From the NCBI GenBank assembly GCA_012729455.1, contig JAAYDC010000015.1, forward strand, positions 62,001 to 126,000: a stretch of DNA of 64,000 nucleotides, given 5' to 3'. The notes below the pieces were generated by a model, which was not told where the DNA came from, did not search any database, and saw only the letters and a list, made by a program, of their open reading frames with translations. The position numbers and the translations under genes are program-made. Positions 22,410-31,217 of the stretch are shown piece by piece. Within the stretch, counting starts at the first letter, position 1, and the number at the start of each line of letters is the position of its first letter. The DNA comes from Chloroflexota bacterium. GTDB lineage: Bacteria; Chloroflexota; Anaerolineae; UBA1429.

Positions 22410-22438
22410 ATTATAAATCCTGATGAGCGCGGATGCAA
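22410..22438 (-). promoter_or_regulatory. ssb promoter
   Basis: TTGCAT (22438-22433), 17 bases, TATAAT (22415-22410), reading leftward. It lies back-to-back with a weaker rightward TTGCGG (22445-22450), 16 bases, CACAAT (22467-22472) serving murF-alr. Confidence 0.6.
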
Positions 22439-22489
22439 CCGATATTGCGGTTTGCTGGATTTATGACACAATACCCCTATGGAGGGATT

Positions 22490-25030
22490 ATGATCGCTCT
22501 TGATGACCTGATTCAAGCCACTCACGCCCAGCTTTATGGTGAGGAAGGGCCGCGCATCTATAACGGCTTTGCCTATGACTCGCGCCTTGCTCAACCCGGC
22601 GACCTGTTCTGTGCGCTGGTCACCTCGTCTGGCGATGGCCACGCCTACATCGACGAGGCGCTTCAGGCCGGTGTGCGCGGCGTGCTGTGCAGCCGGCTGC
22701 CCGATCAACGCCCGGGTGGGATCGCCTATGTGCTGGTAAGTGATACCCAACAGGCCTTGCTCGAGTATAGCGGTTACATCCTGCGTACCCGCAAGATCGA
22801 GGTCATCGCCGTGACGGGCAGCCTTGGCAAAACCAGCACCAAGGAAGCTGCTGCCGCCGTGCTCGCGCAGCGCTACCGAGTCTTCAAAAGCGTGGGCAAC
22901 TATAACGGACGCCTGGGGATGGCGATCTCGCTGGGATCGCTCGATCCGTCGCACACGCACGCGGTGCTCGAGCTGGCCAGCGACTCTATCAACGAGATTC
23001 GCGATCTAGCAGCCATCACCAGGCCGCGGGTTGGCATCGTGACCCAGATCAGTCCCAGCCACCTCGAGCTGTTTGGCTCTCTCGAGCGCATCGCCCAGGA
23101 AAAAGCGGCCCTGCTGCATGCTCTGCCGGCGGATGGTCACGCCATCCTGAACGGTGACGACGCCTATATACGGAGCATGGCTCGAGTCAGCCGCGCACCG
23201 CTGAGTTGGTATGGCCGCACCAAGGACGCCGATCTGCGCCTGGTTGATGTGCAGGTCAGTGACGCAGGCACGCTGGTAACAGTGGTAGAAGGTGATGATG
23301 AACAAGTCCTCAGCATTCCGCTGCTGGGCGCGCAGCATGCCTACACCGTACTGGCGGCCAGCCTGCTAGGACGCCTGTACGGCCTGGGATGGAAAGCAAT
23401 TCGCGCCGGCCTGGCGACGGTGGTACCGCTCCCCGGGCACACACGCCTGCTTGAAGGCCTCAACGCCAGCCGCATTCTGGATGACAGTTACAACGCCAAC
23501 CCTGTCTCGGCCGCCAGTGCCCTGCAGCTGCTGGCCAGCCTGCCAGCCAGGCGCCGCATCCTGCTCCTGGGCGATATGGCTGAGCTTGGCGCCGAGACGC
23601 TGAGCGCCCATCAGGAGGTTGGTCGCCTGGCGGGCAGTATGGTCGACCAGATGGTGACACACGGCGAATACAGCAGCCTGGCAGGCCAGGCTGCCGTTCA
23701 GAACGGCCTGCCGCCCAGCGAGCTGCACGTGACCGCCACGCGTCAGGATGCGGTGCGCTATCTGCAAGCCACCTTACAGCCTGGCGACCTGCTGCTGGTA
23801 AAGGGCAGCGCCGAGGCGCGCATGGAGACGATCACCCGCGAGCTGCTGGCAGAGCCCACCCGAGCGGACGATCTGCTGTCGCGTCAGAATCGCGGCTGGC
23901 AGGAGATCCGCTTGAGCCGGCCTGAGCGCCCTACCTGGGTCGAGATCGACCTGGAGGCGATCGCCCACAACACCAGGCTGCTCAAGCAGGCCGTGGGCAC
24001 GGATGTCGCCCTGCTGGCGGTGCTCAAGGCGGATGCCTACGGCCATGGTGCCATCAAGACCGCTCACACGGTGCTCAACAACGGCGCCAAGGCGCTGGGA
24101 GTGGCCTGTCTGGGCGAGGCGATTGTGCTGCGCCAGGCTGGCGTGCGTGCTCCGCTGCTGGTGCTGGGCTATACCCCCGCATGGCAGACCCACGACGCCG
24201 TGCTGCACGATGTGCCCCTTACCGTCTTTGACCTGGAAAGCGCGCAGGCACTCTCACGTGCGGCCCTTCGCCTAGGCCGCACCGCCAGCTGCCATGTCAA
24301 GGTCGATACCGGCATGGGCCGCCTCGGGCTTTATCCCGAGGAGGTATCTACATTTCTTGCTGCATTGGCGGACCTACCGGGCCTGCAGGTTGAAGGGATC
24401 TTTACGCACCTGGCTACCGCCGACGAATCCGATCCGACCTACGCCCTAGAACAGCTGGCGCGCTTTGACAACCTGCTGGATAACCTACGCCAAACGGGCA
24501 GGCTGCCGCGCATCGTGCATGCCGCCAACAGCGCCGCTCTGTTGCGTTTTCCGCACAGCCGCTACGACATGGTGCGGCCCGGCATCGCGCTGTATGGCAT
24601 CAACCCTTCCGCACAGGTACCCCTGCCGAGTGGATTTCGCGCCGCGCTCAGCTTTAAAAGCCAGATCGCACAGGTCAAAGACTTGCCGGTGGGTGCTTCG
24701 GTCAGCTACGGACGGCGTTTTATCGCCGAACGCCCCACCCGTGTGGCGGTTATCCCAGTCGGTTATGCAGATGGGTTTCGGCGCAGCCCCCAGAACTGGG
24801 GCTGGGTGCTGGTGCGCGGCCAGCGTGCGCCGTTGATCGGCAGTGTGTGTATGGACCAAACCATGCTGGATGTGACCGAGATTCTAGGCGTAGCTCAGGG
24901 CGATGAGGTGGTGCTGATCGGCAAGCAGGGCGATGAACAGATCACCGTAGATCAGGCTGCCCGGCAGCTGGGCACAATCAGTTATGAGCTGGTAGCCGAG
25001 ATCCTCGCACGTGTACCGCGCATGAGCTAG
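22490..25030 (+). CDS. murF-alr: Bifunctional MurF ligase-alanine racemase fusion
   Basis: 846 residues. Residues 1-~455 are UDP-MurNAc-tripeptide:D-Ala-D-Ala ligase: VTGSLGKTSTKE P-loop near residue 108, and DDSYNANPVS and LGDMAELG in the C-terminal Mur domain. After a short linker (~460-485), residues ~485-846 are alanine racemase: KADAYGHG with the PLP lysine K513, Y740 in SYGRRF as the second catalytic base, and SVCMDQ. The fusion makes L-Ala to D-Ala and adds D-Ala-D-Ala in one cytoplasmic chain; a Ddl ligase is still needed. MurF-Alr fusions are known in Bacteroidota. ATG 22490 follows GGAGGG. Confidence 0.92.
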   Translation: MIALDDLIQATHAQLYGEEGPRIYNGFAYDSRLAQPGDLFCALVTSSGDGHAYIDEALQAGVRGVLCSRLPDQRPGGIAYVLVSDTQQALLEYSGYILRTRKIEVIAVTGSLGKTSTKEAAAAVLAQRYRVFKSVGNYNGRLGMAISLGSLDPSHTHAVLELASDSINEIRDLAAITRPRVGIVTQISPSHLELFGSLERIAQEKAALLHALPADGHAILNGDDAYIRSMARVSRAPLSWYGRTKDADLRLVDVQVSDAGTLVTVVEGDDEQVLSIPLLGAQHAYTVLAASLLGRLYGLGWKAIRAGLATVVPLPGHTRLLEGLNASRILDDSYNANPVSAASALQLLASLPARRRILLLGDMAELGAETLSAHQEVGRLAGSMVDQMVTHGEYSSLAGQAAVQNGLPPSELHVTATRQDAVRYLQATLQPGDLLLVKGSAEARMETITRELLAEPTRADDLLSRQNRGWQEIRLSRPERPTWVEIDLEAIAHNTRLLKQAVGTDVALLAVLKADAYGHGAIKTAHTVLNNGAKALGVACLGEAIVLRQAGVRAPLLVLGYTPAWQTHDAVLHDVPLTVFDLESAQALSRAALRLGRTASCHVKVDTGMGRLGLYPEEVSTFLAALADLPGLQVEGIFTHLATADESDPTYALEQLARFDNLLDNLRQTGRLPRIVHAANSAALLRFPHSRYDMVRPGIALYGINPSAQVPLPSGFRAALSFKSQIAQVKDLPVGASVSYGRRFIAERPTRVAVIPVGYADGFRRSPQNWGWVLVRGQRAPLIGSVCMDQTMLDVTEILGVAQGDEVVLIGKQGDEQITVDQAARQLGTISYELVAEILARVPRMS

Positions 25031-25044
25031 ATCCAGTTTAGCTC

Positions 25045-25073
25045 TTGACAGATCAGAACATACGTTCTATTGT
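25045..25073 (+). promoter_or_regulatory. Promoter of the radical SAM repair gene
   Basis: Perfect TTGACA, 17 bases, TATTGT. The spacer contains the LexA-type box, so bound repressor would block RNA polymerase. Confidence 0.65.
25056..25067. promoter_or_regulatory. LexA (SOS) box
   Basis: GAACATACGTTC is a perfect match to the Gram-positive/cyanobacterial LexA consensus GAAC-N4-GTTC and is itself palindromic. It lies between the -35 and -10 of the promoter. Confidence 0.75.
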
Positions 25074-25102
25074 ATAGGCATGACCCTCACCTGGAGGCGC
25101 GC

Positions 25103-26242
25103 ATGTCTGCTATCAAGACCCTTGCTCAACTGGGGCTGGCTGCCCAATATGACCAATGTTCGAGCACGGACAGAGCGCCCACGCGCTCCCGTGACCCGAT
25201 TACGGGTGCGATCTATCGCGCGTTGATGCCGGACGGCAAGTGCCTGCACCAGCTCAAAGTGCTGCAGACTAATATCTGCACCCAAAGCTGCAACTACTGC
25301 CCCAACCGCAGTGCCAACGATATCCCGCGCAACCAGCTATCACCCGATGAACTGGCGCGCAACTTTGATGAGGTGGTGCGCCGCGGGCGCGCTGATAGCC
25401 TGTTCCTTTCTTCCGGGATCGCCGACAGCCCCAACCATACTGCCGAACACATGCTTGCCAGCGTTGAGCTCTTGCGCAAGTGTTACGGCTTTGGCGGATT
25501 CATCCACTTTAAGCTGATGCCCGGCGTCGAGGATGCCATCATTGAGCGCGCGCTGCAGCTGGCGCAGCGTGTGTCCGTCAACCTGGAGGCGCCCTCGGCG
25601 GCGCGTCTGCAGGTGCTCTCGGGGTCCAAGCAGCTGCCAGATCTGCTCACGCCGCTGCAGCGTGCGCGCCGCATGATCGACCGCGAACAGCTGCGTGTGA
25701 GCATGACCACCCAGCTGGTGGTGGGCGCTGCGGGCGAGAGCGACCGCGAGATCCTCTCAACGGCATCGGCGCTCTACCAGCAGCTGCGGCTCGCGCGCAC
25801 CTACTATAGCGCCTTTCGCCCGATACCCCGCACCCCGCTGGAGGGCCATGACCCCACCCCATCGTGGCGCGAGCATCGCCTTTACCAGGCTGATTTCCTG
25901 CTACGGACTTATGGCTTTGGATGGCGCGAGTTGGTGCTGGATGAACTCGGTAACCTACCGCGCACAGCCGACCCCAAAACTCTCTGGGCACTGCACCATC
26001 CCGAGTTCTATCCTGTCGAGCTCAACCTCGCAGAGTTACCGGCGCTGTTGCGCGTGCCTGGCATCGGGCCAACCTCGGCCAACCGCCTGTTGCACTGGCG
26101 GCGAGCACGCCGCCTGAACAGCTTGGAGCAGCTGACCAAAGCCGGTGCTGATGCCCGGCGCGCAGCACCCTATATCCTCCTAGCTGGCGTGCGGCCAGCA
26201 CACCAGCTAGTGCTTTGGGCTGGCAAGGAGCAACCGATCTAG
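25103..26242 (+). CDS. Radical SAM DNA-repair/modification protein with C-terminal HhH
   Basis: 379 residues. A CTQSCNYC (CxxxCxxC) iron-sulfur motif lies near residues 58-65, followed by SGIADSPN, HFKLMPG and NLEAPS of the SAM barrel; the C-terminal ~70 residues contain LLRVPGIGPTSANRLL, a helix-hairpin-helix DNA-binding motif. This matches the family annotated as putative DNA modification/repair radical SAM protein, often next to a UDG-like partner; no partner is seen here. The substrate is unknown. ATG 25103 is preferred with TGGAGG upstream over an in-frame earlier TTG. The LexA box in its promoter supports a DNA-damage role. Confidence 0.82.
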   Translation: MSAIKTLAQLGLAAQYDQCSSTDRAPTRSRDPITGAIYRALMPDGKCLHQLKVLQTNICTQSCNYCPNRSANDIPRNQLSPDELARNFDEVVRRGRADSLFLSSGIADSPNHTAEHMLASVELLRKCYGFGGFIHFKLMPGVEDAIIERALQLAQRVSVNLEAPSAARLQVLSGSKQLPDLLTPLQRARRMIDREQLRVSMTTQLVVGAAGESDREILSTASALYQQLRLARTYYSAFRPIPRTPLEGHDPTPSWREHRLYQADFLLRTYGFGWRELVLDELGNLPRTADPKTLWALHHPEFYPVELNLAELPALLRVPGIGPTSANRLLHWRRARRLNSLEQLTKAGADARRAAPYILLAGVRPAHQLVLWAGKEQPI

Positions 26243-26287: not shown

Positions 26288-26311
26288 GGATGTCATTGAT
26301 GAACCGGCTAT

Positions 26312-26419
26312 AGCGCCGAATGCGACAGCAGCGGGGGAACCAGCCCGTGGGGCGAATCGGAGAACTAACCGTAGGGCGACCTTTTCCGCCCGAGCCCGGC
26401 AGCTAACCTCGTAGGCGTT
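26312..26419 (+). ncRNA. Cyclic di-AMP riboswitch (ydaO/yuaA class)
   Basis: The leader holds the hallmark conserved blocks of the ydaO motif in order: GCCGAAT, GCGGGGGAACCA, GGGGCGAATC, then TTTTCCGCCCGAGCCCGGCAG and CTAACCTCGTAGGCG. CGCC (26314-26317) pairs with GGCG (26414-26417) to close P1. An intrinsic terminator follows two bases after the domain, as expected for the class, in which c-di-AMP binding favours termination. It would lower expression of the ABC exporter and DUF1854 genes when c-di-AMP is high. Boundaries are approximate. Confidence 0.9.
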
Positions 26420-26420
26420 G

Positions 26421-26456
26421 AAAGGGCACCATTGCACCGATGGTGGCCTTTTTTTC
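26421..26456 (+). terminator. Riboswitch expression-platform terminator
   Basis: AAAGG-G-CACCAT pairs with ATGGTG-G-CCTTT (a single G/G mismatch), seven-base loop, then a run of T. The gene's ribosome site begins ~20 bases later. Confidence 0.85.
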
Positions 26457-30980: not shown

Positions 30981-31217
30981 GTGACTCCGCAGCGTTGCGC
31001 CGTCACCCAACCTGAGAGTAAAGCAGGCAAGTTGTTCAAGATCACCGTGAATCCCGTCAAGGAGCGTGGTAACGGCGCCGCCACAATCCCTGTTATCCGC
31101 TACCGTCTGAGTGAACCGCAGTTCGGCTATGACCTCGTAGAGACGGCCGTCCCCGGCTTTGTCGGGATCCTGCCGCACATGCTCAGCATCATCTACCAAC
31201 CGCAGGCCTGTGCGTGA
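30981..31217 (+). CDS. Small uncharacterised protein (78 aa)
   Basis: A short open frame beginning with GTG and ending TGA at 31217, where the last bases overlap the GTG start of the acyltransferase (GTGA). Strong G/C preference at third codon positions supports real coding. The product is basic at first (SKAGKLFKITVNPVKERG), then neutral/hydrophobic with YDLVETAVPGFVGILPHMLS; no signal peptide, cysteine motif or domain is recognised. Coupling to the acyltransferase suggests a lipid-metabolism partner. Function unknown. Confidence 0.6.
   Translation: MTPQRCAVTQPESKAGKLFKITVNPVKERGNGAATIPVIRYRLSEPQFGYDLVETAVPGFVGILPHMLSIIYQPQACA

Follow-up and report, generated by a model that had tools for sequence, protein, structure and literature searches.

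A gene for a radical SAM protein with a helix-hairpin-helix (HhH) domain lies behind a palindrome resembling an SOS box in the genome of a Chloroflexota bacterium of the class Anaerolineae, which raises the question of whether the gene is controlled by LexA and, if so, whether its product acts on damaged DNA. The window, by which we mean the whole stretch of 64,000 nucleotides that was analyzed, carries this gene on the plus strand at 25103–26242 (ATG at 25103, 379 amino acids), and its product is a solo relative of TIGR03916 (rSAM_link_UDG). The promoter, also on the plus strand, begins with a −35 element, TTGACA (25045–25050, read from the sequence), followed by a 17-bp spacer (25051–25067) whose 3′ end is the predicted LexA operator GAACATACGTTC (25056–25067), assigned from the sequence and from a weight matrix trained on lexA boxes. 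The palindrome takes up the 3′ portion of the spacer, directly next to the −10 element TATTGT (25068–25073); the extended operator AGAACATACGTTCT spans 25055–25068, and 35 bp separate the operator from the ATG. A preliminary description had placed a perfect LexA site between the −35 and −10 elements of a TTGACA promoter, and the coordinates agree. We dropped an alternative start at TTG 25070 (390 amino acids) because it overlaps the −10 element, whereas ATG 25103 has a well-spaced GGAGG ribosome-binding site, identified from the sequence (25093–25097, plus strand).

The same genome encodes a single LexA, which scores 179.6 bits against TIGR00498 (cut-off 110.95). Its own operator, AGAACATTTGTTCA, lies inside a TTGACA promoter, as AGAACATACGTTCT does in front of the radical SAM gene, and occupies the same spacer (TTGACA-TAGAACATTTGTTCAGC-TATACT). 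With the matrix, which was trained on 30 lexA boxes only and judged against a null of 501 windows, the radical SAM operator scores 20.6 as compared with 20.65 for the lexA box. In a scan of the whole window it ranks far ahead of any other site (20.8 versus 10.1 for the runner-up). The 30 training loci are the 29 best relatives by score plus the lexA of this genome, out of 56 genomes with a match, and all 30 upstream regions examined contain a perfect box. In five genomes (G015, G035, G038, G040, and G053), lexA-like genes occur as a tandem pair, both members scoring above the model cut-off.

Taken alone, the motif GAACN4GTTC is not beyond chance, and it is position and conservation that decide. 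We counted 2 occurrences in the window against 0.6 expected, with at least 2 in 10 of 100 shuffles, and 23 genome-wide against 19 for the reversed control. The second occurrence in the window (31113) lies within other open frames, ~100 bp upstream of a 226-amino acid ORF at 31214, and no TTGACA composite is present there. When the −35 element is required as well (TTGACN{2,6}GAACNNNNGTKC), exactly two sites are found in the 2.64-Mb genome, those of lexA and the radical SAM gene. Summed over 60 genomes of the class, this composite occurs 248 times as compared with 41 times for the reversed control, a background of about 1 in 6. The box that the preliminary description offered as evidence is therefore not significant by itself (2 versus 0.6; 23 versus 19), and what stands of that argument is the operator setting and its conservation.

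Conservation was assessed across the class, in which the radical SAM gene is present in 45 of 60 genomes, the other 15 giving no match. Two genomes with gene fragments only (G004 and G021) were left unscored, so that 44 homologue loci were drawn from 43 genomes, with G011 counted twice. Within 250 bp upstream, 38 of the 44 loci have a box with no more than one mismatch, perfect in 20, compared with no perfect site and 0.077 sites (up to one mismatch) per 250 bp in 133 kb of flanking and coding sequence from the same loci. Using the lexA-trained matrix, 38 of 44 upstream regions outscore all 501 null windows, and by family the box is found in 26 of 29. A second set of 80 named loci included 51 from Chloroflexota; after removal of 13 duplicates of the first set, 32 of the remaining 38 score above the 99th percentile of the null. 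Loss of the box in related genomes, which the preliminary description had named as grounds for abandoning its proposal, is thus not what we see. Outside the Chloroflexota, 2 of 29 loci (L221 and L225) pass the same 99% threshold, although LexA motifs there may differ.

The position of the operator is also constrained. At 31 of the 44 loci the spacing between the box and a −35-like element is nearly constant, and in these fully parsed promoters the box begins 3–5 bp past TTGACA and is separated from the −10 element by 0–2 bp, a gap that is 0 or 1 bp in all but one of them. This fixed arrangement differs from that of the lexA promoters, where in all 30 cases the box begins 1–3 bp past TTGACA and stops 2–4 bp short of the −10 element. 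Nine of 50 recA promoters could be parsed, and these mostly follow the radical SAM type. At both recA and radical SAM promoters the half-site GTGC frequently replaces GTTC, and the GTGC(TA) form may represent a compromise with the −10 element. Among the six loci of the class that have no box (L049, L051, L072, L073, L078, and L079), the gene start overlaps or immediately follows the stop codon that ends the upstream ORF in L049 and L051, comes at once behind a stop in L072, and lies ~30 bp behind one in L078 and L079; because these genes follow an upstream ORF with no gap or with one of ~30 bp at most, we infer that five of the six have probably lost their own promoter.

We also asked which other genes carry the composite site. 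Forty further sites selected from the 248 were annotated, 10 by scanning against NCBIfam and the others by judgment from the sequence. Recognizable products include several recA, uvrA, dinB, gyrB, a Hef/XPF-like nuclease, and FtsK-like and ImuA/RecA-like proteins; many sites have no clear product or lie within repeats. Given this motif class upstream of recA, uvrA, dinB, gyrB, and the Hef/XPF-like nuclease in related genomes, we take the motif to be that of the SOS response and not of another regulator. In this genome, a third site, of half-asymmetric SOS type, GAACAACTGTGCTA (C23:101961; L298:1501–1514), lies directly upstream of a large helicase gene, presumably of the Lhr kind. Two perfect boxes (C24:404 and C24:6014; L017 and L018) share one 41-kb contig, one of them ~20 bp upstream of a gene resembling a helix-turn-helix replication protein, and these perhaps mark a mobile element under SOS control. 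In another genome (G051), 9 of 11 composite sites are near-identical, TTGACAGT(C/A)GAAC(T/C)CTTGTGC, and occur on different contigs, which probably reflects a dispersed element bearing a LexA-like promoter.

We compared the retention of this operator with that at recA. The recA set covered 50 of the 60 genomes (30 loci given and 20 chosen by hand). Scored with the lexA-trained matrix, 16 of these 50 upstream regions exceed the 99% threshold within 250 bp, a number that rises to 18 when 350 bp are considered. Where both genes could be scored in one genome (37 cases), 31 radical SAM and 10 recA upstream regions score above the threshold; 21 genomes have the box in front of the radical SAM gene but not of recA, and none shows the reverse. 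In the family to which the window belongs, the contrast is 11 of 11 genomes for the radical SAM gene versus 1 of 14 for recA, and neither the sequence nor the matrix reveals a box upstream of the recA of this genome. Across the Anaerolineae, the control site is kept more faithfully at the radical SAM gene than at recA. Of the three genes that were scored, the radical SAM gene is, as a predicted LexA target, second only to lexA in conservation and ahead of recA. Such conservation appears to mark it as a core DNA-damage gene. With its operator within a lexA-like promoter, the conservation of that operator upstream of orthologues, and a LexA gene in the same genome, the predicted LexA control of the radical SAM gene is well supported, and we assign it high confidence.

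The protein itself combines two recognizable parts. A radical SAM core (residues 56–222; 25268–25768, plus strand) matches PF04055 with 42 bits (cut-off 29.5), which places the protein in the radical SAM superfamily, and the three cysteines of the 4Fe-4S cluster motif CxxxCxxC (C59-C63-C66; 25277–25300, plus strand) are invariant. The C-terminal HhH domain (residues 304–346, hairpin P319-G-I-G322; 26012–26140, plus strand) was found by both profile and fold matches. HHH_3 gives 25.5–26.4 bits on the window protein, slightly below its cut-off of 27, and HhH models match the C-terminal part of 35 of 35 members (HHH_3 E-value of 0.001 or better). The preliminary description, which had proposed this pairing of cluster and HhH, was right on both. 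Two alignments were used: one of 37 of 40 rows, with the near-copies L044, L051, and L078 removed, and one of 35 of those 37, with L075 and L082 removed.

An AlphaFold2 model built with 37 homologues has a mean pLDDT of 92.2. Residues 1–290 align with LipS2 (lipoyl synthase 2; 4u0o, Z 17.7, r.m.s.d. 3.3, 232 residues aligned) and with HydE (7o1o, Z 17.4, r.m.s.d. 2.3, 214 residues aligned), and biotin synthase and others are also among the matches. These similarities show the fold, not the reaction, and the closest folds of known structure belong to lipoyl synthase, HydE, and biotin synthase, none of them a DNA-repair enzyme, which counts against a repair reading. Spore photoproduct lyase (SplB), which to our knowledge has no HhH domain, is absent among the fold matches listed; kinship with it is possible. 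Profile matches of the C-terminal part are to ComEA (4.2e-9), a family X DNA polymerase of the polymerase β kind (1.6e-6), topoisomerase V, and RuvA. Modeled separately, the HhH domain is closest to ComEA (8dss_B, Z 7.8, r.m.s.d. 1.7, 60 residues aligned), although Foldseek with this domain alone gave weak E-values (best 0.051), so the HhH assignment rests on sequence profiles. A type II secretion pseudopilin is also among the HhH fold matches, and proteins without DNA-binding activity can likewise contain HhH domains, which counts against a DNA reading. A viral structure library returned general radical SAM matches only. Two IMG/VR viral contigs of ~12 kb (L348 and L349), the only two such matches, encode distant radical SAM relatives with 37 and 34% identity.

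As we understand the family description, TIGR03916 proteins are paired with a TIGR03915 protein; we take COG4277 to be the same HhH radical SAM family as TIGR03916, and DUF4130 to be TIGR03915. The window protein matches TIGR03916 over its full length (295.1 bits, 9.2e-88), which is below the curated cut-off of 343.5 and leaves it outside the family as defined, whereas some solo relatives exceed the cut-off (L041, 350.6; L204, 345.1). None of the 60 class genomes, this one included, contains a TIGR03915 protein in searches at an E-value of 0.001, adjacent or otherwise, with Caulobacter and Bacteroides controls positive, and none was found among five neighboring proteins scanned. The absence of a UDG-like partner claimed in the preliminary description is upheld in that TIGR03915 is missing from all 60 genomes; two proteins of the UDG superfamily are encoded elsewhere in this one. 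Among the 80 named loci, a TIGR03915 partner adjoins the gene in 4; for loci outside the class, "solo" refers to neighborhood evidence only. All four partnered radical SAM proteins exceed the TIGR03916 cut-off, and in a tree of 106 they group together in a single clade (support 99) that does not include the window protein.

Despite this separation, the window protein shares with the radical SAM protein of the TIGR03916 and TIGR03915 (SAM_7_link_chp, with or without a UDG domain) system full-length homology, the same CxxxCxxC motif, the core residues, and the HhH domain. To the rounding of our table, the residues shared without exception by the 61 solo and the 4 partnered proteins are C59, C63, C66, R125, H135, K137, R156, S158, N160, E162, K176, Q204, E212, D214, R256, R259, Y261, Q262, Y270, D290, and K292, together with the hairpin P319-G320-x-G322. 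Because these conserved residues are equal in the two groups, the radical chemistry is probably the same with or without the partner.

Upstream of the promoter, a MurF-alanine racemase (Alr) fusion (22433–25030, plus strand) ends 14 bp before the −35 element; downstream lie a c-di-AMP riboswitch (26304–26431, plus strand; RF00379, 93.4 bits) and, behind it, a pair of genes for an ABC transporter and a DUF1854 protein. The pair is similar to cyanophycin-associated families, with scores below their cut-offs. Neither flank has a link to repair. Elsewhere, dinB adjoins the radical SAM gene in 5 of 80 named loci. In L247 and L261 it immediately precedes the gene in the same orientation, and in several family members, where dinB was read from the sequence, the two genes converge. 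Loci with a dinB neighbor, named in the same way, are L030, L033, L034, L039, L247, and L261, and a neighbor in L031 begins like a formamidopyrimidine glycosylase.

The best reading of these observations, and in our judgment a probable one, is that the gene is repressed by LexA and encodes a radical SAM enzyme of DNA repair that works without a partner protein. In undamaged cells, LexA bound to an operator that fills the spacer between the −35 and −10 elements and touches the −10 element would block RNA polymerase. RecA on single-stranded DNA would trigger self-cleavage of LexA, and the radical SAM gene would then be transcribed. Its product would carry a 4Fe-4S cluster on C59, C63, and C66 and generate a SAM-derived 5′-deoxyadenosyl radical, the ComEA-type HhH domain may take the enzyme to DNA, and radical chemistry would repair or process a damaged base or nucleotide there, with no need of the TIGR03915/UDG partner that serves the sister clade. 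We have good confidence that the protein is a DNA-damage enzyme, and DNA is its likely substrate. LexA control, which the preliminary description had called direct evidence for a role in DNA damage, is strong evidence, but it is indirect.

Three other explanations were weighed against this one. Had the box been a chance or coding palindrome, or the site of another regulator, the gene would be constitutive, and the counts of GAACN4GTTC near control in both window and genome are what one would then expect; the near-fixed promoter position, the presence of the box in 26 of 29 families, the scores from a matrix trained only on lexA, and the same motif upstream of recA, uvrA, and dinB make this highly improbable, and we rejected it. 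It is also improbable that the gene is SOS-induced but that its product acts on something other than damaged DNA, such as DNA bases for modification, tRNA or rRNA, or the nucleotide pool. The fold neighbors do include RNA and nucleotide enzymes (RlmN and viperin) besides cofactor enzymes, and the NCBIfam wording is "modification/repair," yet the C-terminal HhH of the ComEA and polymerase β kind, the adjoining dinB, and the pairing of the sister clade with a family named as a putative DNA repair protein all argue for damaged DNA.

A hidden partner would change the picture in another way, in that "solo" would describe the gene arrangement only and a glycosylase or a diverged TIGR03915-like protein would act from elsewhere in the genome. 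The two UDG-superfamily proteins are candidates for this role, and the TIGR03915 model is not very tolerant, since a true partner in Geosporobacter scores 86 bits against a cut-off of 112. That same partner nevertheless gives 3.2e-24, whereas the 60 class genomes gave nothing at 0.001; the contigs bearing the UDG genes (C12 and C25) have no perfect GAACN4GTTC, and the partnered proteins are confined to their single clade. We therefore consider a hidden partner unlikely, and a partner-free enzyme the better account.

LexA control of partnered relatives has been published, and what is new here is only the partner-free, class-wide form. A COG1573-COG4277 UDG base-excision operon is under SOS control in Bacteroidetes, with Verrucomicrobia and Alphaproteobacteria (Caulobacter) cited likewise (PMC8565304). 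That operon comprises two genes, one for a UDG, and has other LexA motifs, whereas the Anaerolineae gene is single and carries GAACN4GTTC. SOS control is common to both, and with COG4277 taken as the HhH radical SAM family the two proteins would belong to one family. In Clostridium acetobutylicum, LexA control has been predicted for CAC3343-CAC3344 (PMC3828012), a prediction for one species and for a two-gene operon that includes a protein of unknown function, in contrast to the single gene described here. "A radical SAM protein" is also listed in the LexA regulons of Gram-positive bacteria and Balneolaeota (PMC7739468). SplB is likewise a radical SAM protein of DNA repair that is SOS-regulated in several groups, although it belongs to a different COG (COG1533) from the radical SAM-HhH protein (PMC8565304). 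Among the literature searched, the family names occur in PMC3765255 and PMC8565304; Chloroflexi receive passing mention only in the available text of PMC3323433, and no SOS regulon of Chloroflexi, Dehalococcoides, or Anaerolineae was found in that literature, which consisted mostly of papers accessible without subscription.

These data provide a LexA motif and a first sketch of the regulon for the Anaerolineae, and they place a widespread radical SAM family in a regulatory setting. They also indicate that the Anaerolineae enzyme is retained, and SOS-controlled, without the partner from which the family takes its name. The single-gene, partner-free versions are simpler to assay. More tentatively, and with rather more doubt than conviction, we suggest that the protein may be the founder of a partner-free, SOS-induced radical SAM class that achieves direct radical reversal of a DNA lesion, or crosslink cleavage, without a glycosylase step, and whose LexA control has been kept where recA left the regulon. 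If this is true, the loss of recA from a regulon that retains one radical repair enzyme would suggest that a particular lesion dominates in these largely anaerobic lineages.
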